A DNA stretch of 26,050 nucleotides from a virus: positions 1 through 26,050 of IMG/VR virus record IMGVR_UViG_3300037076_000106. One strand, 5' to 3'. A program made the translations under genes and the position numbers. Positions 2,834 to 21,255 of the stretch are shown piece after piece; within the stretch, counting starts at the first letter, position 1; every line of letters starts with the position of its first letter. The notes beneath the pieces were generated by a model. The model ran no database searches. It was not told where the DNA came from and was given only the letters and a program-made list of their open reading frames with translations.

Positions 2834-2836
2834 CGT

Positions 2837-5333: not shown

Positions 5334-6041
5334 GTGTTCGACCAAAAAACATATAACCAAAAATACTATCAAAAAGACGTTGATGGTAAAGAACACAACA
5401 AACGTTGTCCTTCGTGTGGGAAAGAACAATCATATAAGACCAATCGGGGGTTGATGGTTGCCATTAGAGAGAATAGAAAATGTGGGTCGTGTGCTTTATC
5501 GGGAAAATTTCTTTCTGATGAGCACAAGAAGCAGTTGGGGCACATAGGAAATACTTATTGTTTGGGAAGAAAACAGTGCCTAAAAGAAAAAGAACTCCGA
5601 AGAGTTTCCAATAACAGACGGTTTGAGAACCCCGAAGAGAGAGAAAGAACCTCCCGTGCTATAAAAATAGCAATGCATAGACCTGATGTGAGGAAACGAC
5701 ACATAGATGCATTGCATCAATCTCAATGGTTGAAAGTAAAAACTGATAAAGGTCAGTTAGAACTTTTGGAAAAATGGAATGGGTTAGGATTTAAGTTTGA
5801 ACCAAATTATCAGGTTCATACTGATACGGATTTGTTCTATGTTGACGGTTTTGACAAAGAACACGGTGTTGTATTAGAGTATGACTCGAAATATCACAAT
5901 ACTTTAGGACAACAAAAGAAGGATTTGATTAGGCAGAATATACTTATAGATGTCCTTAAGCCTAAGAAATTCTGGCGGTATAATGCCGTTAACAAATCAT
6001 TTGAGGATGTCTTAAAAGGAAAAACAATATGTCAAATGTGA
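5334..6041 (+). CDS. Homing-endonuclease-like protein A (zinc ribbon plus EDxHD/Vsr-like nuclease)
   Basis: The product is a probable site-specific DNA endonuclease of a free-standing mobile gene. Its domains in order are a CxxC-x21-CxxC zinc ribbon (C25, C28, C50, C53), a helical NUMOD-like region around FENPEERERTS, then a C-terminal nuclease core. The core reads VDGFD, LEYDSKYH and KKDLIRQ, giving E182, D184, H188, D197 and R200, the arrangement of Vsr/DUF559-like EDxHD enzymes. It lies directly between the protease and the acidic protein, starting with GTG 5334 behind GGAG and overlapping the next gene by 13 bases. Neither neighbour is interrupted, so it is not intron-borne. Its C-terminal half closely matches protein D (12341). 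Confidence 0.8.
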   Translation: MFDQKTYNQKYYQKDVDGKEHNKRCPSCGKEQSYKTNRGLMVAIRENRKCGSCALSGKFLSDEHKKQLGHIGNTYCLGRKQCLKEKELRRVSNNRRFENPEERERTSRAIKIAMHRPDVRKRHIDALHQSQWLKVKTDKGQLELLEKWNGLGFKFEPNYQVHTDTDLFYVDGFDKEHGVVLEYDSKYHNTLGQQKKDLIRQNILIDVLKPKKFWRYNAVNKSFEDVLKGKTICQM

Positions 6042-6646
6042 CTGTAGAAAAAGTAAAGGTCGTCAAGGCACCAGAACAAACTGTTCCTGATGTCAAGGCT
6101 GAAACCCCCAAAGCAGAAGTTTCCCCGGTGGTAACTCCTGTAGTCGTAACCCAAATGGACAAGATGGAAAAGGCAATTGAATTGGTATCTGAAAAGATGA
6201 CCAAGATTGCTGGTTCTTACGATGGTAAATACCAAGAGGATGGAGTCCAAGGCGTCCCCGGCACTAAGGGTGAGAAAACCACCCCTACTTCTGATGGACA
6301 GCCAGACGAAGGACAAGCCGACAAGAAAGCCGAAGGCGACTATGATGACGGATATGCCAAAGGTGTAGAACCCGATGGTGACGAAGACCCCGAGTGTGAT
6401 GATTACGAAGAGTGCTCACATTGCAAGGGAAAAGGAAAGATGAAGAAAGCCGTCAAGAAAGATGCCGAAGAGGAAGAGGAAGAGGAAGAAGAGACATTGC
6501 CAAAGAAGGCAGAACTTTCTACCAAAGCCGACCTCAGCGTTGATGCTTGGCGAGCACATTTCGGTTTCAGTAACAAGCCATCCAAAGCCATGCAGACATG
6601 GAAAGATGCTTGCGACAACTTCACCAATCCCGTCATCAAGGAATAA
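6029..6646 (+). CDS. Acidic low-complexity protein, possible scaffold or capsid accessory
   Basis: The 205-residue product is Pro/Val/Lys-rich at the start (residues 10-45), has a short helix around MEKAIELVSEKM, a Gly-rich piece with GVQGVPGTKGE, and a very acidic middle. A single DnaJ-like CxxCxGxG element lies at 129-136 (C129, C132), followed by an uninterrupted run of Glu from 147 to 155. The C terminus (DAWRAHFGFSNKP) looks folded. It starts at ATG 6029 behind AAAGGA. It sits between the protease and the major capsid protein, where scaffolding and decoration proteins are found, so a head-assembly role is inferred. No family is recognised with confidence. Confidence 0.6.
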   Translation: MSNVTVEKVKVVKAPEQTVPDVKAETPKAEVSPVVTPVVVTQMDKMEKAIELVSEKMTKIAGSYDGKYQEDGVQGVPGTKGEKTTPTSDGQPDEGQADKKAEGDYDDGYAKGVEPDGDEDPECDDYEECSHCKGKGKMKKAVKKDAEEEEEEEEETLPKKAELSTKADLSVDAWRAHFGFSNKPSKAMQTWKDACDNFTNPVIKE

Positions 6647-6651
6647 TGTAT

Positions 6652-7062
6652 ATGTCAAAGTCAGCCCGTATCATAGAACTCGAACAGAGTCTTGCCGAGG
6701 CGAGCCTTGACGTACAGACCCTTCGGGAAGAGACCGAGAGCAATAAGAAACTAATCACTCAGTTCCAACAGCAAAAACTGGACTATGAGGATAAGGCAAA
6801 GAAACTTGCCGAGACTCATAAGAAAGAGTTGGATGAGGTAAAGAATTTGCTGAATGACAAGGAAGATAAGCTTAACAAGCGTCTTAGCGAGGCATTGGCA
6901 TCCATCGGTGTTGCGAATTTCGCAGCCGAAGAAATAATTTCAGTCGAAGGTACAGCCCCGAGTGAGTTGTATCATAAGTTCCTATCCCTCAAGGGTGCGG
7001 GGCAGACGTTGTTCTATAACAAGCATAAAGCTGAAATTGAACGCTTTATGAACCAGAAATAA
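6652..7062 (+). CDS. Coiled-coil protein, putative scaffold-like head protein
   Basis: The start at ATG 6652 is chosen because AAGGA lies eight bases upstream; an in-frame ATG at 6646 is too close to it, and frames further upstream run inside the previous gene. The 136-residue product is a nearly continuous charged helix from about residue 7 to 82 (IIELEQSLAEAS to NKRLSEALASI), followed by a small folded C-terminal domain with ELYHKFLSLKGAG and HKAEIERF. Long helical proteins immediately before the capsid gene are often scaffolds that are expelled or cleaved by the head protease. That role is inferred from architecture and position. It ends two bases before endonuclease B. Confidence 0.6.
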   Translation: MSKSARIIELEQSLAEASLDVQTLREETESNKKLITQFQQQKLDYEDKAKKLAETHKKELDEVKNLLNDKEDKLNKRLSEALASIGVANFAAEEIISVEGTAPSELYHKFLSLKGAGQTLFYNKHKAEIERFMNQK

Positions 7063-7064
7063 CA

Positions 7065-7802
7065 ATGCGGTTGAAGGCCATACAACTTATACGAGATGGA
7101 ATTATTACTGAACTCGAAGGAGAGGCAGTAACAATGAAGTGCCAAACGTGTAAAGGTGATAGGAAATTCAATAACATAGAATTGGCGTTGAATGCTATCC
7201 GAATGGGTAGAAATCAATGTATATCTTGTTCTTTGATAGGGAAACGTGTCGGGGTGCCAAATCTAAAAAATAGGCATCCAAAATCTGAGGAAGAGAAGCG
7301 AAAAATGTCGTTGGCTCGAATCGGAAAAGAACCCGGAAATAAAGGTAAACGGGGTCTTATGGTTCATTCCGATGAGTGGAAGCGAGATAACTCTATTCGT
7401 CAGAAAAAACGATATGAAAATCCCGATGAACGGAGAAAGGCAAGGATACTTGCCATAGAACAACACCGTAAAAACGGAATAGATTTTCCAGCGGTTGATG
7501 CTGGTGCAAATGAGTATTTTGGATGTTTGAACACGTCTTATGGATTGAACATTCAGTACCCAAACATAGAAATCAAAGATTTAGGTTATTTCTTGGATGG
7601 CTACGACAACGTAGCACATGCTGCTTATGAGTATGACTCAAAACGTCATCTTTTACCAGCAGTACAACATAATGACCTGATAAGACAGAAGGAGATTATT
7701 GATTACTACAATAGTATCAGTAAGCCTCTTTCGGCATTTTATCGAATCAATGCTACCGGAGTAGGTAGTAAAGAAATAGTAAATGTTTTAACAACAAAAT
7801 GA
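7065..7802 (+). CDS. Homing-endonuclease-like protein B (zinc ribbon, NUMOD3-like, EDxHD nuclease)
   Basis: The 245-residue product has a CxxC-x22-CxxC zinc ribbon (C26, C29, C52, C55), then a NUMOD3-like DNA-binding stretch at roughly 58-100 with repeated G-K turns (KSEEEKRKMS, GNKGKRG), a YENPDERRK helix, and the C-terminal nuclease core. The core shows DGYD, YEYDSKRH and HNDLIRQ (E189, D191, H195, D204, R207) and ends with FYRINATGVG, shared with protein E. It belongs to the same subgroup as C and E rather than A and D. It occupies the space between the coiled-coil gene and the major capsid gene. No ribosome site is visible before ATG 7065, so expression may depend on coupling to the upstream stop two bases away. 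Confidence 0.8.
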   Translation: MRLKAIQLIRDGIITELEGEAVTMKCQTCKGDRKFNNIELALNAIRMGRNQCISCSLIGKRVGVPNLKNRHPKSEEEKRKMSLARIGKEPGNKGKRGLMVHSDEWKRDNSIRQKKRYENPDERRKARILAIEQHRKNGIDFPAVDAGANEYFGCLNTSYGLNIQYPNIEIKDLGYFLDGYDNVAHAAYEYDSKRHLLPAVQHNDLIRQKEIIDYYNSISKPLSAFYRINATGVGSKEIVNVLTTK

Positions 7803-7814
7803 GCCAGTAGGCTC
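7800..7814 (+). promoter_or_regulatory. Short hairpin over the stop codon before the capsid gene
   Basis: The stem GAGCC/GGCTC closes a four-base loop (AGTA). The hairpin begins inside the TGA stop of endonuclease B and lies 20 bases before the GTG of the major capsid gene, leaving the GAAAGGA ribosome site in single-stranded, A-rich sequence. It has no T-tract and so is not a terminator. A 5' mRNA-stabilising or processing role for the capsid message is an inference. A similar hairpin precedes the gene at 9870. Confidence 0.35.
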
Positions 7815-7833
7815 ACAAATGAAAGGATAGCAA

Positions 7834-8805
7834 GTGGCTATTTCAAACAACAGTCTGGCGGGCTACCTCGCAGTATATGCACAGAAGTCCCTAACCGCCT
7901 TCTTGGCGGATATGCCGGCCCGTGATATGTTCACCGAGAATTTCGATGACTCTATTGCGACAGGTGGTGTGTCGGTAACGACTCGTATTCCAACCACAAT
8001 CTATGGCACCATGAACGACCTTGGTACTTCGGGATGGGAATCCGCACAAGCTACGGCAAGTGCAGTGACTATCACGTTGGCAACCAAGGGGCATGACCAT
8101 AGCTTCAACGTCACGGAATGGGCAACCATTACTCCGTCCATGTTGGAGTCTCTCTACTTCCCAGTCATTGCGAAGCAGACGGCAAACGGTGTCGTAGTTG
8201 ATGCCTTCAATCACGTAACCAGTTCGGTCAATGTTAGCGGTTCGTCCGTCAACAACGCAAGTGCATTTTCTCTCGCAGGAGCCACTGGCTCATTGCAGAG
8301 TGTTGCTCGCATTTTGGATGACAACGAAATCCCAGTAACAGACCGTTATGCCATCCTTAATCCAACAGCATGGCAAGCAATGGTGTCTGGTATGTATCAG
8401 ACGTACGTATGGGGCGACCCAACCGTAATCCGCACAAACGGATATAGCGAAAACGCCACTAACCGTGGATTGTTTGTGGCAGGTTTCAATACCTACAAGT
8501 ACCCACGCCTTAATGGAGCAGTTCTCCCTTATGGTGGAGACAAAGTGGCTCCGGGCGGAAGTGACAAACTTATTGGTGTCGCAGGACACAAGCAAGGTTT
8601 GGTCATGGCGTGTCGTACACCGATTGACATGAACACGGGATTGATTCAGAGCTATACGGCTGTGGACCCAACCTCGAAGTTGTCAATCCAAGTCATCTTG
8701 GCGTTTGACCAAAGCAAGCCAGTTTGGCGTATCGGTACGTATATTCTGTTCGGAACTGCTGCGGGTAATACCAAAGCCGTTGTCCCAATCCTCTCGCTGA
8801 CATAA
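7834..8805 (+). CDS. Major capsid protein (HK97-fold, P22 coat-like)
   Basis: The 323-residue product has features of HK97-fold coat proteins: a short N-terminal arm, FTENFDDSIATGGVSVTTRIP resembling the coat pattern of a disordered loop followed by a strand, an alternating Ser/Thr/Ala-rich region, and the spine/P-domain signature DRYAILNPTAWQAM. It starts with GTG 7834, favoured by GAAAGGA ten bases upstream; no better ATG exists in the frame. The gene is followed at once by a strong terminator, as expected for the most abundant virion protein. Family placement is by pattern and by its position after protease and scaffold candidates. Confidence 0.85.
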   Translation: MAISNNSLAGYLAVYAQKSLTAFLADMPARDMFTENFDDSIATGGVSVTTRIPTTIYGTMNDLGTSGWESAQATASAVTITLATKGHDHSFNVTEWATITPSMLESLYFPVIAKQTANGVVVDAFNHVTSSVNVSGSSVNNASAFSLAGATGSLQSVARILDDNEIPVTDRYAILNPTAWQAMVSGMYQTYVWGDPTVIRTNGYSENATNRGLFVAGFNTYKYPRLNGAVLPYGGDKVAPGGSDKLIGVAGHKQGLVMACRTPIDMNTGLIQSYTAVDPTSKLSIQVILAFDQSKPVWRIGTYILFGTAAGNTKAVVPILSLT

Positions 8806-8831
8806 GCGATTGGCAGAATAAAGAATTCACA

Positions 8832-8874
8832 ATGGGCGGTGGTGTGTAAAAGCTCACTGCCGCCCATTTTTTCT
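8832..8874 (+). terminator. Rho-independent terminator after the major capsid gene
   Basis: A 13-pair stem runs from 8832-8844 to 8855-8867, with two G-T wobbles and a GC-rich base (GGGCGG/CCGCCC). The ten-base loop is followed by a T-tract at 8867-8872. It is the clearest terminator in the window. It ends four bases before the next start codon, so any readthrough message begins its next gene directly behind this hairpin. Confidence 0.9.
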
Positions 8875-8875
8875 T

Positions 8876-9211
8876 ATGACATTAGCACAAGAAATGGTAT
8901 CTGGAATCGAGTTCCAAGAGACTGATTTGGGAGTACCCACATTCAATCTCATGGGAACCGACTACAACTGTGTTCCAAGTGTCAATCAGTTCAAACGAGA
9001 ACTTGAGTCAGGAGGTTTCGTTATTGACAAGATGCTGACAATGGTAGTGAGGCTACTTGATGACACTGGAAACGATGTCTTCACAACTCTCCCAACCCCG
9101 CAACAGGTGGTGGTATATCGTGGAGAACAATTTCGTATAGAAAGTATTCACACCCACCCCACGGGGGCGTACATGCGTATCATCGCAATGGGTGTTACCA
9201 AGGGTATCTAA
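8876..9211 (+). CDS. Putative head-tail joining (stopper) protein, gpFII position
   Basis: The 111-residue product has a helical N terminus and a mainly beta C-terminal half ending in YRGEQFRIESI and GAYMRIIAMG. Head-closure and stopper proteins often end in a similar strand pattern, with a charged hairpin (RGEQFRI) before a final strand. It follows the capsid gene and precedes a tail-completion-like gene, matching lambda E-FII-Z. The start at ATG 8876 has no ribosome site because the terminator T-tract lies in front of it. A second in-frame ATG at 8894 gives a protein six residues shorter, with only a weak upstream AAGAA. Function is inferred mostly from order. Confidence 0.55.
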   Translation: MTLAQEMVSGIEFQETDLGVPTFNLMGTDYNCVPSVNQFKRELESGGFVIDKMLTMVVRLLDDTGNDVFTTLPTPQQVVVYRGEQFRIESIHTHPTGAYMRIIAMGVTKGI

Positions 9212-9212
9212 A

Positions 9213-9839
9213 ATGGTAACTATCAAAGTGGATACCCGGGAGTTCGACAAGGTGTTCAGCGAGTATATGAAGTACACCAGTCGTGACTTGGTAGAAGCGT
9301 GTAATCAACATGCTTATTATATCGCAAGGAATGCGGTAGCTGATACCATAGCCGTTCCGAAGGAAAAAATTGTCTCGGAACTCGGACGGATGTCAAGGGA
9401 TTATCCTCCTGCTCCATTGGGGGCAATTATCGTTCAAAAGAAACGTGCTGCCCAAGGATTGAAGGGATTGAGTGGGCGCAAGATGGCCATAGCGGTTGAG
9501 AAAATGATAAGGGCCAGACAAGCGGCAAGGAATTTCGTAAAAGCTGGATGGATACCAGCGATTAAGTTGCTTGAACGAGTGGTTCCCAAACGTGGTGGTA
9601 AACCCATCGGTGGGACAAAAAAAAGAGGCGTTGATAAGGGTGGGGCGAGAGCCGCCATCCCGAGCCTCATCAATTGGAGTCCAATGACTTCCATTTGGAA
9701 CTCAGTAAGTAAACTTAGAGACCAAGGCTTCAAGGTAATGGAAGTGGGTGCTCAAAAGGCTGTTGCAGAAGAAACACAATCAATGAGAGACTACATCGAA
9801 AAGAAACTGATTGAGCGTGGAAAGAAAATTGGAGGGTAA
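9213..9839 (+). CDS. Putative tail completion protein, gpZ / HK97 gp10-like
   Basis: The start is ATG 9213, one base past the upstream stop, with AAGGG eight bases before it; frames beginning earlier run inside the previous gene. The 208-residue product begins with a short strand (TIKVDTREFDKVF), then long helices with the pattern TSRDLVEACNQHAYYIARNAV seen in tail-completion and neck proteins that act on assembled tails before head joining. The middle is very basic (residues 75-140). A C-terminal helix ends in KKLIERGKK. Gene order (capsid, stopper, this gene, terminator-like, tube) fits Z. Similarity is general, so the name is provisional. Confidence 0.55.
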   Translation: MVTIKVDTREFDKVFSEYMKYTSRDLVEACNQHAYYIARNAVADTIAVPKEKIVSELGRMSRDYPPAPLGAIIVQKKRAAQGLKGLSGRKMAIAVEKMIRARQAARNFVKAGWIPAIKLLERVVPKRGGKPIGGTKKRGVDKGGARAAIPSLINWSPMTSIWNSVSKLRDQGFKVMEVGAQKAVAEETQSMRDYIEKKLIERGKKIGG

Positions 9840-9847
9840 TAACCCTC
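9832..9847 (+). promoter_or_regulatory. Short hairpin over the stop codon before gene 9870
   Basis: GAGGGT pairs with ACCCTC around an AATA loop. The hairpin spans the TAA stop of the upstream gene and leaves the AAAGGA of the next gene in unpaired A-rich sequence. Without a T-tract it is not a terminator. Its position relative to stop codon and ribosome site matches the hairpin before the capsid gene (7800-7814), which suggests a shared role in message stability. Confidence 0.3.
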
Positions 9848-9869
9848 ATAACAACAAAGGAATAGATAT

Positions 9870-10247
9870 ATGGCAAATTCAATTCGAGTAAGCGGTAATG
9901 CAAGTGTAACGTCTGACGGTCTGACTGTCAACAACACGATTACCTATACAATCAATATGACGGGTTCAAACGTCACGGCAACAGTGACGGATGTAGCACT
10001 TGGTTCATGGCAAGCCCTGAACACATCAAGTCTTAGCGACATTCGTATCTTTGTAGCGAGCAACGTACCCCCAGTTGACGGGCAAAGTGGAAGCATTCAG
10101 ATTGCCTCTGCTGCCTCTGGAACACCAGTAGTCACAATCCTCGGGTCAGGTGACTCCGTAGTATTGCCTTGGTCGGGAAGTTTGGGTCTGTGGGCACGAG
10201 CCTATACATCCGCATCGGCCTTGCAGTACATTGTGGCTGAGTCATAA
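9870..10247 (+). CDS. Hypothetical beta-rich virion protein, 125 aa
   Basis: ATG 9870 follows a good AAAGGA ribosome site. The product is rich in Ser, Thr, Val and Gly with almost no charged residues, alternating short strands throughout (RVSGNASVTSDG, YTINMTGSNVTAT, IRIFVASNVPP, SGSIQIASAASG, LGLWARAYTSAS). This composition is typical of small beta-sandwich virion proteins such as decoration or tail-attached proteins. No family is recognised. It lies between the tail-completion and tail-terminator candidates. The strong ribosome site and preceding stop-codon hairpin hint at high expression, but this is an inference. Confidence 0.6.
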   Translation: MANSIRVSGNASVTSDGLTVNNTITYTINMTGSNVTATVTDVALGSWQALNTSSLSDIRIFVASNVPPVDGQSGSIQIASAASGTPVVTILGSGDSVVLPWSGSLGLWARAYTSASALQYIVAES

Positions 10248-10259
10248 TTTGATACCAAT

Positions 10260-10697
10260 ATGTCACTACCAATCCTAAGAACAACCGAACTGGCATGTGT
10301 TGCGTTAGCATACAGTGCTTCGTTGTCGGCAAACTTGGGGTTGACGATTGACAATGGGATTTACGCTGGAATTTCAAATACAGATAAACAAGCACCCGCA
10401 GTGATTTGTTATACAGAATCGGCAACTGAGGACTTTCCGTTCTCGGGCATCCATCACTGTCGAACACATGTGATGGTGAAGCAGATTGCGTATGACACAT
10501 CAACGTCATCAAGTTTGTCAGACGCAGTATTCGGAACCTTTTGCTCTGGTAGTAATGGAGCATATGCGAAAGACATCCTGAACCGTTATCCCGGTTTCTT
10601 CTGCTATGAGTATTTCATAGATGGAACCAGTGATAGTGTGGACGGAGACGCATGGGTGGAAGAATATGTGTTTGATATAGTGTCAGCACTTAAATAA
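10260..10697 (+). CDS. Putative tail terminator protein (gpU-like position)
   Basis: The 145-residue product has a helical N terminus (ILRTTELACVALAYSASL) and a mixed alpha/beta body including AVICYTESATEDFPFSGIHHCRTHVMVKQIAYDTS and a late EYFIDGTSDSVDGDAWVEEYVFDI. The pattern of central strands, a polar loop and then a strand near the C terminus resembles tail terminator/DUF3168-type proteins that cap the tube. It directly precedes the tail-tube-like genes, as U precedes V in lambda. No ribosome site is evident before ATG 10260, and the gap from the upstream stop is 12 bases. The role is assigned mainly from order. Confidence 0.45.
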   Translation: MSLPILRTTELACVALAYSASLSANLGLTIDNGIYAGISNTDKQAPAVICYTESATEDFPFSGIHHCRTHVMVKQIAYDTSTSSSLSDAVFGTFCSGSNGAYAKDILNRYPGFFCYEYFIDGTSDSVDGDAWVEEYVFDIVSALK

Positions 10698-10709
10698 AGG
10701 AAAAATCAT

Positions 10710-11108
10710 ATGAGCGACAGGAATAAATACCACGGAATTGCGGTTAACTTCGGTGTCAATTCGACAATCGGAAGCGTAGTCGGTGTCTTTCAAACGAGGG
10801 ACCACGGGCTTGAATCCGACAACGAAATCATCCGAAACGGAACTGGCGATGAAGTTGAAAAGACTTTCTACGGAACTGGCAGAGAGACCTGTACTTTCGA
10901 GTACGTGGCTTCACAAACGGGTGGTCCAGCAGGGAATGCAACCGTAACGTATCCAACTATTGGGGATGCATTTACAGTTACAGATACGAATTATCCAGCA
11001 ATCGCTGGAACTTCGTGGCTCTGCGATGGAGTGGACATCAAGGGTAGCAATACTACGGCAGTTCGAGTCACCGTTAAGGCCACAAGATACGCCCTCATAA
11101 GTTCATAG
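10710..11108 (+). CDS. Tail-tube-like protein, copy 1
   Basis: The 132-residue product is beta-rich and begins with a HGIAVNFGVNSTIGSVVGVFQ segment. It contains PTIGDAFTVTD and ends with GSNTTAVRVTVKATRY. It is a clear paralogue of the protein at 11910: both share HG-x-x-V-x-FG, G-x-FQ-x-R-x-H, a VA-x-Q step, the P-x-IG-x-F-x-V turn and the closing NTTAVRV-V-K-RY. Position between the terminator-like gene and the tape measure suggests a tail-tube subunit. AAGGA precedes ATG 10710. The tube call is by order and fold-like pattern, not by a recognised family. Confidence 0.55.
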   Translation: MSDRNKYHGIAVNFGVNSTIGSVVGVFQTRDHGLESDNEIIRNGTGDEVEKTFYGTGRETCTFEYVASQTGGPAGNATVTYPTIGDAFTVTDTNYPAIAGTSWLCDGVDIKGSNTTAVRVTVKATRYALISS

Positions 11109-11117
11109 GATAAATAG

Positions 11118-11146
11118 TTGCTTTTACTGTTATCCTCCTCTATACT
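11118..11146 (+). promoter_or_regulatory. Candidate sigma-70-like promoter for endonuclease C
   Basis: A TTGCTT element at 11118-11123 and TATACT at 11141-11146 are separated by 17 bases. The -10 matches the consensus at five of six positions, the -35 at only three. Transcription would begin about two bases before ATG 11155, giving an almost leaderless message. The element overlaps an inverted repeat (GGATAA/TTATCC at 11108-11135). This is one of the few gaps in the operon long enough for a promoter. Confidence 0.3.
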
Positions 11147-11154
11147 TATGGTAT

Positions 11155-11907
11155 ATGAAGATTACAAAGAAAAGTCAATTTGAGTCCTGTGGAGGGGCAA
11201 GAAATTGCCCTGTTTGTGGCAAGGTTTTGTATTCTAAAACCTACGATGGATGGCTTGTTGCTCTTAAACGACAAAGCAAATGTATGAGTTGTTCTCAAAT
11301 GGGGAAAATCCAGTCGGAAGAATCCAATGAGAAACGAAGAGCATGGAACAATTTACACCGAGGAAATAAGTTTGAACTCGCTGGTCGAAGTAGAGTATGC
11401 CCTCTGTGTGAAGACATAATTGTGTATTCCCATTATCGTACTTGGTGGCGAGCAGCTAAAGAAAATTCGTGTTGCGAACACTGTGCGAAATCACAAAACG
11501 GAAAGCACAATAAAGGACTTCTTCGTTCGGATGAGTTTCGGTTGAAGAAAAGTAAAGAAGTTCTTGGTCGTAAGCATTCGGAAGAAACAAAGAGAAAACT
11601 CCGAAAACTAAAAGCTGAGAGATTTCTTCGACTTAATATAGGGACGAGTGTAGATAAAGGTGCGACTGAATATTTCATTGGGTTGAATTCCAGTGGAAAG
11701 TCAATCGAAACCACCAAATATTTCTCTGACATAGGGTATTTTGCCGATGGGTATGACCCAAAGGACCATATCTGGTATGAGTATGATACAAAATATCATT
11801 CTACGAGAATCCAGAGAGAAAAAGATATGATACGCCAAAACAACATCATTGACTATTTCAAGTCAATCGGAAACCCGTTGAGGGATTTCGTAAGGATAAA
11901 GGAATAA
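11155..11907 (+). CDS. Homing-endonuclease-like protein C (two zinc ribbons plus EDxHD nuclease)
   Basis: The 250-residue product carries two tandem zinc ribbons: C18, C21, C43, C46 and C82, C85, C106 or C107, C110, with matching spacing and matching sequence after the first pair (YSKTYDGW against YSHYRTWW). A NUMOD3-like segment follows (KEVLGRKHSEETKRKLR), then the nuclease core with DGYD, YEYDTKYH and EKDMIRQ (E209, D211, H215, D224, R227). It sits between the two tail-tube-like paralogues. It may have its own promoter (11118-11146), and no ribosome site is visible. It belongs with B and E by its core (DKGATEYF, IGYFADGYD, IIDYFKS). Confidence 0.8.
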   Translation: MKITKKSQFESCGGARNCPVCGKVLYSKTYDGWLVALKRQSKCMSCSQMGKIQSEESNEKRRAWNNLHRGNKFELAGRSRVCPLCEDIIVYSHYRTWWRAAKENSCCEHCAKSQNGKHNKGLLRSDEFRLKKSKEVLGRKHSEETKRKLRKLKAERFLRLNIGTSVDKGATEYFIGLNSSGKSIETTKYFSDIGYFADGYDPKDHIWYEYDTKYHSTRIQREKDMIRQNNIIDYFKSIGNPLRDFVRIKE

Positions 11908-11909
11908 CA

Positions 11910-12335
11910 ATGCCCAAAGTACATGGCGTAAGCATATCATTCGGCATAGGCACCACAATCTACGGTGTCAATGGGATGTTCCAATCCCGAGAGCACCATT
12001 ACATCGCCAATTCCGAACTAATCACCGATGGTGGTGACACCACGGTCAGCAAGGTCTATTGGGACTTTCGTGAAGAGGCATCCTTTGTATATGTGGCGTA
12101 CCAACCTGCCCACAATTACTACAATGCATTCGTAGAAACGCCTCAAATCGGGTCGTTCGTAACTGTTGCTGATTTCATCTATCCAGCCGTCAGTACTGAT
12201 GGTGGGTATAACTATGCCATTGATGCCTACCGTGGTCCTTGGCTGGTGGATGATGTGGCGGTATCCAATAGTAATACAACTGCGGTAAGGGTCAGTGTTA
12301 AACTCAGCCGATACCCGCATCTGCAAAATACCTAA
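11910..12335 (+). CDS. Tail-tube-like protein, copy 2
   Basis: The 141-residue product aligns along its whole length with the protein at 10710, with an extra ten residues or so before the final strands (around YNYAIDAYRGPW). Conserved landmarks are VHGVSISFG, GMFQSREHH, PQIGSFVTVAD, YPAV and NTTAVRVSVKLSRY. AAGGA precedes ATG 11910. The two copies are separated only by endonuclease C, so they arose by tandem duplication or by acquisition of a second allele. They might form a mixed tube, or one may be a tube-end or baseplate hub subunit. Divergence is large, so the duplication is not recent. Confidence 0.55.
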   Translation: MPKVHGVSISFGIGTTIYGVNGMFQSREHHYIANSELITDGGDTTVSKVYWDFREEASFVYVAYQPAHNYYNAFVETPQIGSFVTVADFIYPAVSTDGGYNYAIDAYRGPWLVDDVAVSNSNTTAVRVSVKLSRYPHLQNT

Positions 12336-12340
12336 TCGTT

Positions 12341-13033
12341 ATGGAAGAATATAATAGAAACTGTCCAAAGTGTGGAAGGCTTTTAGAGTACTCTCGGAAA
12401 GATAGTATGAAAAATGCGGAGCGTCTTCAAAGTAGCTGTAAACGGTGCAGGGTTATTTCGGAGGAAACAAAACAACGCATAGGAAAAGCGTCCGTAGGAA
12501 GACATCATTCAGACCAAACTAAAGATAAATTGTCAACGTTGAAAATGGGAGACCGAAATCCTAATTATGGTATTAAACTGTCTGAGGAAGTACGTATAAA
12601 GATGTCTGGTTCTCAACTACAGAGATATAATAATAGAGAAGAACGAAAAAGGACATCTGATGCAATTACAATAGCGATGCATAGACCAGATGTTAGAAAG
12701 AGGCATATCGCTGGTCTTCTCCATTCTAAATGGTTAAATGTTAGAACGGATAAGGGGCAATTGGAACTGTTGGACAAATGGAACCGATTGGGGTTCAAGT
12801 TTGAGCCAAATTATCAGGTTCATACAGATACAGATTTGTTCTATATTGATGGATATGATATGGAACACAACGTAGTATTGGAATATGATTCCAAATATCA
12901 TAACAAATATCATCAACAACAGAAAGATTTAGTCAGACAACAAAAAATAATAGACCTTCTCCATCCTAAAAAGTTCTGGCGGTACAATTCCGTTAAGAAA
13001 CAATGTGAGAATGTTTTAGAAAAGGAAGGATAA
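12341..13033 (+). CDS. Homing-endonuclease-like protein D (zinc ribbon, NUMOD3-like, EDxHD nuclease)
   Basis: The 230-residue product has the zinc ribbon C8, C11, C33, C36, then NUMOD3-like repeats (SEETKQRIGKASVGRHHS, NPNYGIKLSEEVRIKMSG). Its C-terminal half is close to protein A: MHRPDVRKRH, TDKGQLELL, GFKFEPNYQVHTDTDLFY and KKFWRYN are shared almost unchanged, also visibly in the DNA. The core has E181, D183, H187, D196 and R199. It starts six bases after the tail-tube copy 2 with no ribosome site and ends just before the GTG of the next structural gene, contributing that gene's AGGAAGGA. Its own flanking genes are intact. Confidence 0.8.
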   Translation: MEEYNRNCPKCGRLLEYSRKDSMKNAERLQSSCKRCRVISEETKQRIGKASVGRHHSDQTKDKLSTLKMGDRNPNYGIKLSEEVRIKMSGSQLQRYNNREERKRTSDAITIAMHRPDVRKRHIAGLLHSKWLNVRTDKGQLELLDKWNRLGFKFEPNYQVHTDTDLFYIDGYDMEHNVVLEYDSKYHNKYHQQQKDLVRQQKIIDLLHPKKFWRYNSVKKQCENVLEKEG

Positions 13034-13037
13034 TCCG

Positions 13038-13664
13038 GTGTCCAAACAACTCGACCAGTTCGTCCAATCATCAATCCCCGAACCATATACTATTCTCGGG
13101 TGCAAACTGCATCCGCTTTCTGTGGGGCATTTGATTTTGATGAAGAGGTTTGAATGTGCGTTTGGACCAGATGATGTCAATAGGGATGGAAACGTCTGGG
13201 ACTTACTCGTGGCAGTAGCCATATGCTGCCGCAAGTACAATGAGTTCCTCGACTGGTATTCCAATACCGAAGAACGTGACGAATGGATACGGGAATGGTT
13301 GGAGGTTCTTACCAAAGAGGCAAATACCAATCCCCAGTGGAAACTTGTCAACAAGTTTTCCTTGTTCAATATGTATCGCCAAGAGGGCATCTCTATTCCG
13401 AAGTACTTTGATGAAGGAGACCATAATGATGACCGAGAGTCGGGGTCACACTGGATTCAGAACATCTTCACGGTCCTTATGACGGAGATGAACTATTCAG
13501 AACCCGACATACTTGACATGCCTGTAGCCAAAGCGTTGTCCCTCTACTTCAAGACATTGGAGAACAAGGGGCAGATAACCTTCATGGCTGATTGGCAGAT
13601 TGAGGACGAGGAACGACTTGCAGCACAAGCAGAGTCGGTGAAAGAAGTGAAAAAGGATAAGTAA
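13038..13664 (+). CDS. Putative tail assembly chaperone or tail accessory protein
   Basis: GTG 13038 lies seven bases after AGGAAGGA. The 208-residue, acidic and mostly helical product begins with a domain containing LGCKLHPLSVGHLILMKRFE, a pattern (hydrophobic-PL-x-x-GH-x-x-L) common in proteins encoded between tail tube and tape measure, followed by a Trp-rich helical middle (WDLLVAVAICCRKYNEFLDWY, WIREWLEVL). The C terminus is charged (EERLAAQAESVKEVKKDK). Position matches lambda G, the tail assembly chaperone. No second frame corresponding to a GT frameshift product can be seen, because endonuclease E begins at the stop codon. The name is positional. Confidence 0.45.
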   Translation: MSKQLDQFVQSSIPEPYTILGCKLHPLSVGHLILMKRFECAFGPDDVNRDGNVWDLLVAVAICCRKYNEFLDWYSNTEERDEWIREWLEVLTKEANTNPQWKLVNKFSLFNMYRQEGISIPKYFDEGDHNDDRESGSHWIQNIFTVLMTEMNYSEPDILDMPVAKALSLYFKTLENKGQITFMADWQIEDEERLAAQAESVKEVKKDK

Positions 13665-14356
13665 TGGTTAATCCAAACATATCTAATTCAGTGAAACGAC
13701 TTTGGGAGAACCCCGAATATCGTGAACGCATGAGAAAGGCACACTTGGGTCAGAATGCTTGGAATAGGGGTATCCCTATGTCAGATGAACAAAAGAAAAG
13801 GATTTCTTCCACATTAAAGGGGAGCGTTTCCCCGAACAAAGGAAAAACTTTTAGTGTGGAAGCATGTAACAATATGTCTCTCGCTCATAAAGGTAAACCA
13901 TCTGGAATAAAAGGAAAGAAAATGAGTTTTGTGGGGAGAGCCAACGTTTCTATAGGAAGCAAGGGTAAAGTGTTAAGTGATGTTCACAAAACCAAAATCC
14001 GTATTGCTACTTGCAAACGCATTCAGTCTTTAGGTATTGCCCCGAGAATAGACAAAGGAGCAACTTCATTTTTCAATATGCTTAATACTGTTGGGTATCA
14101 TATCTGCCATCCTAATATCTATGTGGATGATTTGGGGTACTTTGTTGATGGGTATGACCCCTTCAAACATATTGTCTATGAGTATGATACTCCGGTTCAT
14201 TTGAGACCCGGCAGGCATGACAAAGATGTTGTGAGACAAACTAACATCATCACCCATTTTGCTTCTAATGGTAATCCATTGAATGGATTTATCCGCATCA
14301 ATGATACGGGTATAGGAAATAATATCATGGTTGATGTAATGGAGGAAAATAACTAA
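13664..14356 (+). CDS. Homing-endonuclease-like protein E (NUMOD3 repeats plus EDxHD nuclease, no zinc ribbon)
   Basis: The start overlaps the upstream stop (TAATG), with AAGGA at normal spacing. Unlike A-D this 230-residue product has no CxxC pairs at its N terminus. Residues 10-115 instead form several NUMOD3-like units (ENPEYRERMRKAHLGQ, SDEQKKRISSTLKG, GKPSGIKGKKMS, GSKGKVLSDVHK). The nuclease core keeps E173, D175, H179, D188 and R191 but reads YEYDTPVH, with Pro where the others have Lys, so that Lys is not needed for the shared signature or this copy is weakened. The C terminus (FIRINDTGIG) matches protein B. Its stop overlaps the tape-measure start. Confidence 0.8.
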   Translation: MVNPNISNSVKRLWENPEYRERMRKAHLGQNAWNRGIPMSDEQKKRISSTLKGSVSPNKGKTFSVEACNNMSLAHKGKPSGIKGKKMSFVGRANVSIGSKGKVLSDVHKTKIRIATCKRIQSLGIAPRIDKGATSFFNMLNTVGYHICHPNIYVDDLGYFVDGYDPFKHIVYEYDTPVHLRPGRHDKDVVRQTNIITHFASNGNPLNGFIRINDTGIGNNIMVDVMEENN

Positions 14357-15588: not shown

Positions 15589-15589
15589 T

Positions 15590-16597
15590 ATGAGTAATCT
15601 CAACGTAAATACATTAGGTCAGAACATTGGAACGGTGGAGAATAACTCTGCATTCCGAGGTATAATCCGACAGGCGGCAGTAAATGGTCAAACGACCAGT
15701 ACATGGAATCCACGTACAGGTGGAACCAGCAAGACAGTTCTCAAAGGAACACAAACCAAAATACTTGAATATGCAACACAGTGTCAGACCCAAGGATTTG
15801 AGTATTCAGTCATGGGAGGACATGTATGGACGATAGAAATCACATTCCCGGTGGATGTTATCGTCAATGGAATTAACAGTGAACCGCCTCCTATTGCCAC
15901 TTGGGAACTATCCTATCAACCATTCGAGAAGAACCTTCTCGAACTCAACGATAGGGGACTTATCCAGAACCTTAGTACGTTGAGCAAACAACGAATCGAA
16001 CAAAAACTAAAACTCCCAGAAGAAAAAAGTACATATGCACCGTGGGGGTTTGATGATGTAACTCATTGGGCAGAGGCAACCATAGCATACAATCTAAAAC
16101 GAGCAGGTGTTGAAGGGAAACAAGGATGGGTACATACATTGAAGAAGACCATCGTGGTCAGCAACAATGCCGACACAACGGGTCTTCTTTTGAATCCACA
16201 GTGGGATGGTATGGTGTTCCTCAAAGACCATTTAGTTTCGGTGTATAGTGATGCAGAGCCTAATCCCCTAAGCCGTATGCCAGCCGTAATCAATGTAAAC
16301 ATGCCAGTTCAAACAGATGCCACGAATTGGAATGGAACTACTGCCCCGCATGTTATAACCGAAGGGTACGTGATGGACAAGAATGGTATTATTTCCTACA
16401 TTGGATGGCTTCAATATCCCGCTGAGTATCAGATGATTTCTTTACTGAAATGCCAAATCAGTCAACACTGGGTATTTAACAACTGGTCTGCGGGTCCAAA
16501 GTGGGGACTGTATGACCCTGTTGTGGCATCAACCGAACCAGACCCATCGGTTGGAAGTAATAGCCCGCTCCAAATTGGAGGATTCAACCCATCATAA
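15590..16597 (+). CDS. Putative distal tail / tail-tip protein
   Basis: The 335-residue product has no motif I recognise. It is beta-rich with many Trp residues (SVMGGHVWTIEITFPVD, IATWELSYQPFEKN, YIGWLQYP, HWVFNNWSAGPKWG). It begins one base after the tape-measure stop, so the two are closely linked. Lambda M and L, or distal tail proteins of other siphoviruses, occupy this place. The ribosome site is weak. The Trp-rich, compact-looking sequence with a Pro/Ser tail suits a structural tail-tip protein, but the assignment is by position. Confidence 0.45.
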   Translation: MSNLNVNTLGQNIGTVENNSAFRGIIRQAAVNGQTTSTWNPRTGGTSKTVLKGTQTKILEYATQCQTQGFEYSVMGGHVWTIEITFPVDVIVNGINSEPPPIATWELSYQPFEKNLLELNDRGLIQNLSTLSKQRIEQKLKLPEEKSTYAPWGFDDVTHWAEATIAYNLKRAGVEGKQGWVHTLKKTIVVSNNADTTGLLLNPQWDGMVFLKDHLVSVYSDAEPNPLSRMPAVINVNMPVQTDATNWNGTTAPHVITEGYVMDKNGIISYIGWLQYPAEYQMISLLKCQISQHWVFNNWSAGPKWGLYDPVVASTEPDPSVGSNSPLQIGGFNPS

Positions 16598-16600
16598 TTT

Positions 16601-17368
16601 ATGGCCGACCTGAGAGAAGTAGGAAGCTCGAATGACCCGTTTAGCTATTGGGCGAATTCGTTGAAGGATGTCACACGGGAGAGAGGTCTCTCTAAGAGTG
16701 GTGACATCTTGCTACGTAATACCCACATGGGGGCTTCGATTTCTGTACACCCTAAGTTCAAATACACTCCAAACTTCATGAACTATGTCAGTGAGTGGGA
16801 TGCCGCTGCTGCATATGGGGTAAATGATGTAGTAAGAGTAATGCCGGGAGTAGAGTACAAACTTCCTATGAGTGCTTCGAGCACAGGGGCAGTTCCATTT
16901 CCTTCTCCGGTGGGGTCAGTTGTAGTAACAAGTGGTTATTATATGGCACAAAACGGGCACCAGATGGCAATAACTTCACGAGTAGATAAACCATTGCCGG
17001 GGACGTATATTTGTGTATGCAATGTTCCTGCTTTCTCAACCCTGCCCGAACTTGAATCTATCAATGTCATAAGTCCTACTCTTCATATTCCGTCAAGTTT
17101 TAATGCCCGAGCGGATTTGGCAGGATATTTTGCTTTTCTCCCCTACATAAGATTGACTGACATCAACTATTTCCCTGCGTGGCCAGAATCAAGTAGTATT
17201 GCTGTTCTCAACCCCGACAATCTTACCAAGACGAGAGGACGGTACTGGGAACTTCTTTCATTGCTTCCAACCCCACAACAAGTTTGTCGTAACGGTGAAC
17301 AGAAAACAATCTATGTGGATGCAGAAGTTTCAACCTCGGGTAGTTACCTATACACCAGAACTTACTAA
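16601..17368 (+). CDS. Putative tail-tip protein with carbohydrate-binding-like segment
   Basis: The 255-residue product is beta-rich. Residues 64-100 read as SEWDAAAAYGVNDVVRVMPGVEYK followed by a Gly-Ala-x-Pro turn; this W-x(5)-Y-x-x-x-D-x-V-x(4)-G-x-x-Y pattern resembles chitin/cellulose-binding modules (CBM5/12) seen in tail and lysis proteins. The rest is unrecognised. No ribosome site lies at normal distance before ATG 16601 (a GGAGG is 19 bases upstream). It is followed closely by the Cys-rich gene, suggesting they work in the same tip complex. A role in envelope or glycan contact is an inference. Confidence 0.45.
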   Translation: MADLREVGSSNDPFSYWANSLKDVTRERGLSKSGDILLRNTHMGASISVHPKFKYTPNFMNYVSEWDAAAAYGVNDVVRVMPGVEYKLPMSASSTGAVPFPSPVGSVVVTSGYYMAQNGHQMAITSRVDKPLPGTYICVCNVPAFSTLPELESINVISPTLHIPSSFNARADLAGYFAFLPYIRLTDINYFPAWPESSSIAVLNPDNLTKTRGRYWELLSLLPTPQQVCRNGEQKTIYVDAEVSTSGSYLYTRTY

Positions 17369-17374
17369 TCACCT

Positions 17375-20300
17375 ATGGCATCATGCGTACAAAGCGACAA
17401 CGTTGGGCTTGGTGAGATAACGTTCGATGTAACGGGTTCCCCAGTCAAGATAAAATACAACGTAACGAAGATGCTGAATTATTCAGCATCGGGGATTCCC
17501 CAATGGATTGACCCTTACGAAATCGCCAAAGGCGGTGGTCTTGAAGCTTCCTGTTCCCCATACGCCAGTGACCCTCCACAAAACTTCATTTGCGGTAACT
17601 GGCTTAATGGCAACGTACCATGCTGGCCACAAGATGATAGCATAGTCAAACCATGCGATACAGGGTCATTCTCTACGGGTAATTTCCACAACTGTTTTAG
17701 TCAAAGCAATGATACTGCTTCCAATATCTGTATTGATAACCGACCTCTTGGGTTCAAGAACCTCTACGCCCACAAAACATGGGTAGGCAGACGTTCCTAT
17801 ACATCAAGAGACTGGCAAATCCCCGATGATTGGGATTGGTGCTGTGATGGTTGTGTGTATCACAATTTGGATGAATCCGTTGACAGCGTGAAGTATAGGT
17901 CTGTCTCGGCAACCTCATATTTCAATACTCATATAGATGTCTTTTCAATGGAATCTGTGGACACGGGAACTCAATACTGCTGTTCCGATGGATATACCGA
18001 GTGTGAATGTGGGGTAGGAGATTGTGGTGGAGGAAGCGAGATAGGATGCACAACCTATACAGTTGACCATTCCACCGAATACGGTGGTGCTGCTGATGCG
18101 GCAACCACGATTGATATTTATGGCAACATCATTGCTGTCTCTTGTAATTCAAGTTCCCACGGATGCTCGGTAGATTATTATGATGCATGTAATGATGCTA
18201 CTTCTGCCCAAGCATTAGGAATGCTTGGTGCGGCAAACTCAAATGTTGGAGCATTGATAAATCAGTGGTGTGGAGATTTGAACTCCTATGGTTCCTATGC
18301 CGCCCCTGATGTAGTTTCTCACGATGGACCCGGTAGTTGGACTATTGAGTGGCACGTTGACATCACTCTCTGTACGGCTGGTTGTGGTGGTCCGTTGGAT
18401 GTGACTCATGAACTGGCAGTCCAAATGGTCATTACTCCATCAACGTATGACATTTATACCTATGGACCCAAACCCCAACGTGGTGGATGTACCAATGATA
18501 CTCACTGCTATACGTGGATTCAGACCAACCATAGTCATATGGGATTTGGTGAAACTGATTATACTCAAACGACTGATACCACAGGAATAGGTTCCATTTC
18601 GTTTGACCAACAGTATCACGAAGAAGTCGGAGGAAGTTTAGCCGACCCATATACCATTCAACAGGTCTATGATGAAGTGGTGAACTTGATGTCGTTTTGG
18701 GATTTTGGAGATGAAAATGTTTATCCGTGGAGACGTGATGCTCTCGTCAATATGGGTCCAGTCATTTACCACGATGAAGGTGGGGGAGAGCCATATGTTC
18801 CTGCTTGTACAGCATTACTATTAACCCATACGGGGAATATCATAGGGAAACCCGGACCAGCGGGGATTGATAAAATATGGTGTGTTGACCATCCCAACTA
18901 CTGTAATTGTATGTTTTTCAATGACGTTGATGCATGTTGGGAAATATACCTTCGTGGGTATGGAGCATGGAGCACTGAATGTGGAGTACCAAGAGCTACA
19001 GCCTTCCTCACAGTCCCCGAGGCGAATAACGTACCTCAAGGAGCATTCATCGGAAGCAATTTCTTCTGGACATCCCCGTCAACATGTAACATGGATGCTC
19101 CATCCTATCAAGGGCATGATGATGTCATATGGGCATGTAAATATGCCGAATCCATTTTCTCCAAGCAGGCATTCAACTATTTCCGTCCTTGCGGCATTGA
19201 TAGGCTGCAACCAAGTGAATCGTACAGCAATCGTTGTATCTCAAGTACATCCGATAATGTCCTTACTTTAGAACCTATGGGTCAGCCAACAGACATATCC
19301 ACCGGAGAAACGATGTGGGTATGTGGCACTGGCAATCTTGATGGTATGTGGAAAGGGACAACTGACAGTGGGTATCAGATAACCCTTACTGAGCCACGCA
19401 TTGCCAGTGCTTCTCAATTCCCAATTCAACCTATTACAAGCTGCGGGTCGGGGGTTGTCTATAAAACCCGATGGCAAACCATGACCTCCATTATCTGTGG
19501 AAAAATTGGTGTATCGTCTGCTAACAATGAAAACCCAGTGACTTGTTCTCTATTAGAGCCGACTTATCTTGTCAACGGTGATTCAGTTCAAATTGGTGGG
19601 TCCAAAGGGCTTACTATCATCAATGGAGTTCATACTATCTCGGTCATTGATAATCAACATATTGCTCTTGTAGGAGTAAATGGAACAAGTCAACCTCCTT
19701 ATTCGGGGAGTGGGCAGATATGGTCGCCATTCAGTCCCGACCCGAAATTCAATACTGTGGCGAGCCGCAATGATTTCACTGTTCGTGCATGGCAATATAA
19801 CTATAGAGATATTGGGGAGTACAATAGAGTAATGGGGCAAATTGCTTGGAATACGGGAATCCCATATGATTGCACAAATGGACCCGCTGATAGTTGTGGC
19901 ATAATTCCCGCAACTCCTTCCGAGCCGAGGGGACATCAAGCCGAATGTGGGTTGGACCAGAATGTTATATCCTCTTCGTGTACTACGCATCAACTTCCGA
20001 TAAATGCTTGTGGAGCAATGGCAGCTTATTTCAGCCCCAATGTGGAAAGTTTCGGAAGCAGTTCTCGAAACTATTGGTCTGTGCCAGCAGGATTCACTTA
20101 TGGTGATGGTGTCTATATCACTATGATGCAATGGGCGATTTATCAAATGATGCCCGACCCATACTATGTTAATCCTCCGTGTGCATGTTCAGTAGTTACT
20201 GACCCCGACACTTTCGTTGAAACTCATGAATGTGACCCCAACTGTAGTTGGCAGGAAGATGATGGAAATTGTAATAGAGATGTTACTGGGGATGCAGAAT

Positions 20301-20671
20301 TGGGAATTCCGTGTCACAAATATTATCCTATGAGAGACCAATTTGAAGCAAGATGCGAGCCTCCGGTTGGTGCTCCACCACTTATGAATGGAGTGTATAT
20401 GGGATGTCTTACTACAGCAAACTTTGCGGGTGGAAGAGGCGGGTCTTGCCCCCGTGGCAATTTATGTTATCCACCGGGGCAACCTCTATTCATCTTTCCA
20501 GAACAAGGAAGTAACATCTGTGGCAACAATGCGCTCGACCCAAATATCTATGCCACGCCTTGGATTACTCTTTTGTTGCGTGAAAATTGCGTCTGCAATG
20601 CAGGGTCATTTTCCCAAGCATATATTGATAACGGAATTGGATGCCCTACCGATGTGGTGCCTGCACCGTGA
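17375..20671 (+). CDS. Giant cysteine-rich tail protein, 1098 aa
   Basis: This is the largest protein in the window and has about 57 cysteines by hand count, spread over the whole length with clusters at 156-160 (CC-x2-C), 202-225 (CC, C, C, C, C) and 933-1098 (14 Cys, several as C-x-C). It is also rich in Asp, Asn, Tyr, Trp and Gly, with no transmembrane helix or signal peptide visible and no long coiled coil. No known domain is recognised. Position after the tape measure and tip genes and before the fibres suggests a central tip or host-specificity protein (a gpJ-like place). Such Cys content implies many disulfides or bound metal. No ribosome site precedes ATG 17375. Its stop abuts the stop of the HNH gene on the other strand. 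Confidence 0.65.
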   Translation: MASCVQSDNVGLGEITFDVTGSPVKIKYNVTKMLNYSASGIPQWIDPYEIAKGGGLEASCSPYASDPPQNFICGNWLNGNVPCWPQDDSIVKPCDTGSFSTGNFHNCFSQSNDTASNICIDNRPLGFKNLYAHKTWVGRRSYTSRDWQIPDDWDWCCDGCVYHNLDESVDSVKYRSVSATSYFNTHIDVFSMESVDTGTQYCCSDGYTECECGVGDCGGGSEIGCTTYTVDHSTEYGGAADAATTIDIYGNIIAVSCNSSSHGCSVDYYDACNDATSAQALGMLGAANSNVGALINQWCGDLNSYGSYAAPDVVSHDGPGSWTIEWHVDITLCTAGCGGPLDVTHELAVQMVITPSTYDIYTYGPKPQRGGCTNDTHCYTWIQTNHSHMGFGETDYTQTTDTTGIGSISFDQQYHEEVGGSLADPYTIQQVYDEVVNLMSFWDFGDENVYPWRRDALVNMGPVIYHDEGGGEPYVPACTALLLTHTGNIIGKPGPAGIDKIWCVDHPNYCNCMFFNDVDACWEIYLRGYGAWSTECGVPRATAFLTVPEANNVPQGAFIGSNFFWTSPSTCNMDAPSYQGHDDVIWACKYAESIFSKQAFNYFRPCGIDRLQPSESYSNRCISSTSDNVLTLEPMGQPTDISTGETMWVCGTGNLDGMWKGTTDSGYQITLTEPRIASASQFPIQPITSCGSGVVYKTRWQTMTSIICGKIGVSSANNENPVTCSLLEPTYLVNGDSVQIGGSKGLTIINGVHTISVIDNQHIALVGVNGTSQPPYSGSGQIWSPFSPDPKFNTVASRNDFTVRAWQYNYRDIGEYNRVMGQIAWNTGIPYDCTNGPADSCGIIPATPSEPRGHQAECGLDQNVISSSCTTHQLPINACGAMAAYFSPNVESFGSSSRNYWSVPAGFTYGDGVYITMMQWAIYQMMPDPYYVNPPCACSVVTDPDTFVETHECDPNCSWQEDDGNCNRDVTGDAELGIPCHKYYPMRDQFEARCEPPVGAPPLMNGVYMGCLTTANFAGGRGGSCPRGNLCYPPGQPLFIFPEQGSNICGNNALDPNIYATPWITLLLRENCVCNAGSFSQAYIDNGIGCPTDVVPAP

Positions 20672-21205
20672 TTACACAAATTGTCTTTTTTTACGGCAAC
20701 GTATTTTATGAATATATTCCGATGTAGTATTGAACATTGTGGAGAGTCGAGAATTTGGCAATGAACTTTGTCGTATGAATTTTACATCCGAATTCCGTAT
20801 CTTTTTACTTAATCTATCTTTTTGGATAGCATCATGCGTATTAGATTCGGGGTTCCCCAGAAAAAGGTGCGATGGATTTACACACGGGGGATTATCACAA
20901 TGATGACAAACTTGCATTCCTTTTGGGATTGGACCATTGTGAAGTTCCCACGAGATACGATGAGAACTATAATTGCGTTTATTAAAAATAAACAACCCAT
21001 ATCCTTTTTGGTTACAATTAGCTGTCCATATCCAACATCCTTCCGTTTGTTTTTGAACTTTACACCAAAATCTTTCGGAGAGAGTTCGGGAGTCCTTTTT
21101 AGCACACCAATAACACAAATTATTTCTGTGAAGTGCTCTATTAAGAGCGCATTCACAACTATAAAACAATTCTTTTCCGCAGTTAGGACATATTCTTTTC
21201 CACAT
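20672..21205 (-). CDS. HNH homing endonuclease with N-terminal zinc ribbon
   Basis: The 177-residue product is the only clear minus-strand gene. It has a zinc ribbon at C6, C9, C31, C34 (CxxC-x21-CxxC, the same spacing as endonucleases A, C and D), then an HNH domain: GCWIWTA, YGLF, SSHRISWELHNGPIPKGM, VCHHCDNPPCVNPSHLFLG and NTHDAIQKDR. The H-x-C-x-N-P-x-C-x-N-P-x-H-L pattern is classic for phage HNH_3 enzymes. The basic C terminus probably contacts DNA. It ends immediately next to the Cys-rich gene's stop, so the message would run antisense to that gene. A candidate promoter lies at 21215-21243; no ribosome site is visible. Confidence 0.9.
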   Translation of the reverse strand: MWKRICPNCGKELFYSCECALNRALHRNNLCYWCAKKDSRTLSERFWCKVQKQTEGCWIWTANCNQKGYGLFIFNKRNYSSHRISWELHNGPIPKGMQVCHHCDNPPCVNPSHLFLGNPESNTHDAIQKDRLSKKIRNSDVKFIRQSSLPNSRLSTMFNTTSEYIHKIRCRKKRQFV

Positions 21206-21214
21206 AATGACAAT

Positions 21215-21243
21215 ATAGTATCAAGTTTGTCACCCCAAATCAA
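21215..21243 (-). promoter_or_regulatory. Candidate promoter for the HNH gene
   Basis: On the minus strand TTGATT (21238-21243) and TACTAT (21215-21220) are 17 bases apart, each matching the sigma-70 consensus at four of six positions. Transcription would begin about three bases before the ATG at 21205, giving an almost leaderless message like that predicted for endonuclease C. An independent promoter would be needed because no other minus-strand gene lies upstream within the window. Confidence 0.3.
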
Positions 21244-21255
21244 CTAATTATATCC

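Follow-up and report, generated by a model that had tools for sequence, protein, structure and literature searches.

Candidate free-standing homing endonucleases with a Vsr/EDxHD-like core at the gene junctions of a phage structural operon

In the virus record IMGVR_UViG_3300037076_000106 (26,050 bases; this whole stretch is referred to below as the window), which comes from an uncultivated phage, six nuclease genes were found within 16 kb of the structural operon, which raises the question of whether they multiplied in place or arrived repeatedly from other phages. The window contains genes for the terminase, portal, S49 head protease, scaffold-like proteins, major head protein, tail proteins, tape measure, and tail tip/fibre proteins.

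Nuclease genes between intact structural genes

The six ORFs, designated N1–N5 and H6, were located exactly where a first-pass annotation made from the sequence alone had placed them (Table 1), and neighbours of these genes were identified as structural (terminase large subunit, portal, S49 head protease, major head protein, and tape measure). The flanking genes are whole, as judged by relatives without the insert, and the overlaps proposed in that annotation are real: N5 has one base in common with the stop/start of each neighbour. In addition, N1 overlaps the start of the next gene by 13 nt, and the stop codon of H6 abuts that of the preceding gene. No Rfam intron was found and the neighbours are complete, in agreement with the view that the genes are neither introns nor inteins. 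The GC content of the six nuclease genes was 36.0–39.4% versus 41–50% in the surrounding structural genes. A scan for sigma-70-like promoters revealed no excess, and promoters belonging to the nuclease genes are therefore not claimed.

Table 1. Nuclease genes and exchanged tracts of the window; the last column gives the state of the junctions, all filled in the window, in related contigs
Feature	Positions	Strand	Composition or identity	Neighbours; junction	Junction in relatives
N1	5334–6041	+	GTG start; Zn-ribbon, Vsr/EDxHD-like core (clade A)	head protease / scaffold-like gene; s1	filled: G003 (clade B); empty: G001, G002, G004, G005
N2	7065–7802	+	Zn-ribbon, weak NUMOD3, core (clade B)	scaffold-like gene / major head protein; s2	filled: G004 (clade A); empty: G001, G002, G003, G005
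N3	11155–11907	+	two Zn-ribbons, weak NUMOD3, core (clade B)	two paralogous tail genes flank; s6	filled: G002 (clade A); empty: G001
N4	12341–13033	+	Zn-ribbon, NUMOD3 (3e-12), core (clade A)	s7	filled: window only; empty: G001, G002, G003
N5	13664–14356	+	without Zn-ribbon; NUMOD3 (2e-8), core (clade B)	5' of tape measure gene; s8	filled: G001, L069 (same-site orthologues of N5); empty: G002, G003
H6	20672–21205	-	HNH homing endonuclease; N-terminal Zn-ribbon module as in N1–N4	s9	filled with H6: G002; empty: G001
N4 core cassette	12701–13033	+	75–83% DNA identity with the copy at s5 of G001		
Recently exchanged tract, recognition end of N5	13640–13817	+	83–100% identical to G001		
Co-conversion tract with H6	20528–21575		1047/1048 identical to G002		

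Several other features of the window were recorded. The genes flanking N3 (10710–11108 and 11910–12335) are paralogues with an identity of about 36–39%, probably tail proteins that arose by duplication, and in G003 a match was obtained for only one of the two. The consecutive proteins at 22438–23391 and 23373–24203 carry RITEDG-type repeats at their ends (FRITEDGFRRITEDGNWRVIE; EHRITEDGNHRIFEDG). The second of these matched no Pfam or PHROG family, and a relative of it is present on several other contigs with these nucleases. Finally, (T/S)ASYA motifs are repeated in separate proteins (2032–2343, 22438–23391, and 24200–25963), one of which is fibre-like with a weak pectate-lyase match.

Nuclease core and recognition modules

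The C-terminal core D-G-[YF]-D...E-Y-D-[ST]-x-x-H...[KN]D...RQ, described in the first-pass annotation from E-Y-D onwards, is common to N1–N5. Their five-way alignment contained 19 invariant columns, including D166, D171, G172, D174, E182, Y183, D184, H188, D197, R200, and Q201 (N1 numbering). When N4 was used as a query against the window, the other four genes were recovered with E-values from 2e-66 to 3e-7; thus, the common core is not a matter of chance. Across 45 cores, D43, D46, E54, D56, H60, D69, and R87 were invariant, as was G, while the glutamate of the first core helix typical of EDxHD enzymes was present in N1–N4 and replaced by S in N5 and by K in part of clade C. The ribbons that open N1–N4 are of the CxxC...CxxC type, and the Pfam NUMOD3 module, clear in N4 and N5 and weak in N2 and N3, was matched by 31 of the 44 homologues.

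Profile comparison of the core with Pfam DUF559 and with solved Vsr yielded no significant match; among the 44 homologues, DUF559 and MTES_1575 gave few and weak matches (best 0.011 and 0.0037, respectively). Sequence profiles searched against the PDB likewise returned nothing significant for the core (no core match below 0.06), and the best PDB sequence match was the DNA-binding domain of I-TevI, which was weak (E-value = 0.02). A weak, non-significant alignment of the nuclease-core profile with residues 332–408 of Cas lambda2 (PDB 9izp_A, E-value = 0.06) is possibly due to chance.

AlphaFold2 with 44 sequences gave a confident model (pLDDT 87.9), and the core alone (pLDDT 87.3, pTM 0.80) was predicted to have an alpha-beta-beta-beta-alpha-beta order. 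The nearest PDB folds were mostly restriction-endonuclease-like (Cas4, R2 endonuclease, Vsr, and others), although all matches were weak, with E > 0.001 (best E-value = 0.015; 1vsr, E-value = 0.09, probability 0.80), and I-Bth0305I was not among the 50 matches listed. Among the predicted viral proteins of BFVD, the core matched Vsr, DUF559, NUMOD3, and homing endonuclease proteins (E-values from 1e-7 to 1e-3). The likeness to Vsr/DUF559/EDxHD enzymes noticed in the initial reading is supported, the Pfam profile and PDB fold matches being weak. Because of the predicted fold, the BFVD matches, and the invariant residues, the description of the core as Vsr/EDxHD-like appears well supported; it is not filed as a formal EDxHD/Vsr member, since membership in that sense is not proved.

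The minus-strand gene was correctly assigned to the HNH type: H6 matched HNH_3 (Pfam 1e-13, 51.1 bits against the curated cut-off of 24.8) and phrog_1872 (1e-29). Over its N-terminal 40 residues, H6 shows homology to Zn-ribbons of the Vsr-like proteins (best E-value = 1e-8, in a small set); therefore, the HNH and Vsr-like classes have one recognition module in common.

The dN/dS of the cores was 0.06–0.08, similar to that of the structural genes (0.05–0.06), which indicates that the enzymes are kept functional; by this measure, the cores appear to be under strong purifying selection. The possibility that they are nucleases that have decayed or been recruited, and that now regulate the late operon by binding DNA, was also considered, as Zn-ribbon/NUMOD modules bind DNA and capsid transcription is repressed by CapR, a homing endonuclease that has been domesticated (PMC10448857). 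However, the invariance of the catalytic-type residues in 45 sequences, the low dN/dS of the cores, and the scattered presence of the genes make such a role extremely improbable. The evidence supports N1–N5 as free-standing homing endonucleases of a Zn-ribbon/NUMOD3/Vsr-like type, with predicted cleavage activity.

Origin, turnover and exchange of the nuclease genes

Phylogenetic analysis of the 45 cores revealed clade A (22 sequences), clade B (12 sequences), and a more distant clade C. N1 and N4 fell into clade A and N2, N3, and N5 into clade B, both clades being mixed with copies from other phages, and monophyly of N1–N5 was rejected (AU p = 8e-64). The initial suggestion of one core expanding fivefold as a lineage-specific invasion was thus abandoned. 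Duplication of a single nuclease inside the operon would account for the core common to all five genes and for the closeness of N1 and N4 (72% in the core; DNA identity of 74.5% over 369 bp), and for this pair a single local duplication is conceivable. Nevertheless, the rejection of monophyly between two deep clades refutes expansion for the five as a set, the N4 core is nearer to copies in G001 (84%) and G002 (80%) than to N1, and the same core family occupies other junctions in other phages, so that this origin is very unlikely. As N1–N5 do not form one clade, the tree indicates that the operon was invaded time and again by members of a pool common to many phages, in place of a fivefold expansion. 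As for the density described as unusual, it is indeed high here, but other contigs equal it (four in 14.7 kb and five in about 21 kb).

This pool is large, the clade-B profile having matched 167 stretches in IMG/VR. In 50,697 phage records, no core match to clades A and B was found except in one uncultured 484-kb megaphage; clade C reached Lak megaphages and few others among these records. Neither the portal profile nor the clade-A profile had matches in bacterial genomes, and the closest cultured phage by portal was Verrucomicrobia phage P8625 (23%).

The junctions, numbered along the conserved gene order, were compared in seven related contigs (G001–G005, L069, and L071), which are mostly fragments; no relatives were found with the protease gene as a query. 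Each of the six junctions occupied in the window was empty, with intact neighbours, in at least one relative (Table 1), and the relatives had other junctions filled: s3 and s5 were occupied solely in G001 and s4 solely in G002, and the portal/protease junction of L071 held a further nuclease. Junctions s1, s2, and s6 were filled by different clades in different phages, which points to recolonisation of the same junctions. At s8, the L069 nuclease matched N5 along its entire length with 46% identity, whereas the neighbours were only 23–28% identical, as expected for horizontal movement. A separate observation concerns s0 (g2558/portal), filled in G003 only by a gene that by eye reads as GIY-YIG (L045, reverse complement 2632–3237), putatively a third nuclease class at another junction.

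A recent transfer was traced at H6. The tract shared with G002 (contig IMGVR_UViG_3300050132_000139) runs from the terminal part of the upstream gene through H6 and the complete following gene to the opening bases of the one beyond, and H6 itself has 99.4% amino acid identity in that contig. Outside the tract, the remaining aligned 3.7 kb of the window was 74% identical to G002, with a longest identical run of 46 bp, and a k-mer from the H6 tract was present in one other viral contig only. These data support reading the 1,048-bp tract as the scar expected from homing with co-conversion. It should be noted that co-conversion was seen for the HNH gene, whereas among the N genes it was limited to a short 5' tract in N5 and covered no whole gene. 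The two ends of the G002 contig (33,435 bases) are near-repeats of about 140 bp with a few differences, and because of this the contig probably represents a whole genome that is circularly permuted and was assembled from a mixture of strains.

Exchange was also found within the genes. In contrast to the N4 core cassette (Table 1), the 5' part of N4 (12401–12700) had a DNA identity of 36–57% with the same s5 copy of G001, and among clade-A copies at different junctions (window, G001, G002, and G004) the cores were 67–84% identical and the recognition halves 28–42%. Conversely, the first 160 bases of N5 had a dS of 0.22 relative to G001, as compared with 1.47 in the adjacent structural gene and saturation in the rest of N5. 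Judging by these identities, recombination exchanges the recognition half and the nuclease core independently of each other. That recognition halves track the insertion site better than cores do is only partly supported: in clade A, at equal core identity, they averaged 43% in same-site pairs against 33% in different-site pairs, most same-site pairs representing one locus.

The presence of the genes in differing gaps, together with the freshly copied 1-kb stretch, therefore suggests selfish genes that hop between structural genes and shuffle them. Retention for the benefit of the phage, through exclusion of competitors' structural genes, was weighed against this. Marker exclusion by homing endonucleases is on record in the T4 literature (PMC2988022), the nuclease genes adjoin essential genes, and the cores are strongly constrained. 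Selfish mobility nevertheless fits the turnover seen among closely related phages and the junctions at which one copy has replaced another, and exclusion would be an added benefit and no distinct mechanism, because it uses the same cut and conversion; as the main explanation it is rather unlikely. Selfish homing, that is, free-standing homing endonucleases spread by cutting and repair copying, is taken as a whole to be the very probable explanation.

Proposed mechanism and comparison with known systems

DNA cleavage, target sites, and homing upon coinfection are inferred here. In the proposed scheme, N1–N5 would combine an I-TevI-like recognition half (Zn-ribbon and/or NUMOD3) with a Vsr/EDxHD-type PD-(D/E)XK core, and H6 would be an HNH homing endonuclease with the same Zn-ribbon. 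When two related phages coinfect a cell, each enzyme would cleave the partner's genome at a junction that lacks its own gene, within or close to a head or tail gene. Recombinational repair would then transfer the endonuclease gene, together with adjoining structural-gene DNA, to the cleaved genome. Essential genes would be spared because the insert enters between the stop of one gene and the start of the next, and new targets could arise as cores recombine with other recognition halves. A more general proposal, put forward tentatively and perhaps somewhat less likely than its opposite, is that the structural operon of this phage group is a row of interchangeable docking junctions for homing endonucleases that recombine as a population. 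One conserved Vsr-like cutter would acquire new targets through exchange of its recognition half, an exchange that would extend across the HNH and Vsr-like classes with their common Zn-ribbon, and homing would drive head/tail mosaicism.

These genes supply a little-described subfamily of homing endonucleases, and one small phage group displays empty sites, a fresh conversion tract, same-site replacement, and domain swapping. Should cleavage take place as predicted, these enzymes would be compact nucleases that can be re-aimed, and they would account mechanistically for the mosaicism of phage head and tail genes at gene boundaries.

EDxHD enzymes are an accepted family in which an elongated DNA-binding region made up of several modules is joined to a Vsr-type PD-(D/E)XK core (PMC3943268). 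Its representative I-Bth0305I resembles N1–N5 in having such a core and region, and the D, H, D, and neighbouring acidic residues are conserved here. However, it was described with mobile introns, whereas N1–N5 are free-standing between structural genes; it has no significant sequence match to N1–N5, and the helix glutamate is not strictly kept in their family. A large, previously unrecognised Vsr-like outgroup of EDxHD/Vsr endonucleases, reported in 2025 from phage group II introns, has a similar plan, with Zn-finger modules at the N-terminus and a Vsr-like core of about 100 aa at the C-terminus (PMC12350094). By description, it is set apart by 3–5 CapR/DUF723/DUF4379-like repeats and its location in introns, in contrast to the CxxC...CxxC ribbons, NUMOD3, and lack of an intron here.

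Intergenic insertion, co-conversion tracts, and intronless homing are known for the free-standing homing endonucleases of T4 (PMC2988022), but these have other nuclease folds (seg, GIY-YIG; mob, HNH) and number 12 across a large genome, as compared with the six found here in so short an operon. The HEG islands of ICP1-like phages, with HEGs beside capsid and tail genes, unstable content at fixed loci, and domain swapping (Barth et al. 2023, PMC10448857), share with the present genes their position beside capsid and tail genes, their instability, and their domain swapping, but they belong to the T5orf172 and IPA-HNH families, and the main text of PMC10448857 does not mention EDxHD or Vsr. Relative to these systems, the architecture and free-standing habit of the subfamily and the extent to which its members saturate a single small structural operon are new, as is the clear evidence for empty sites, conversion, and swapping within one phage group.
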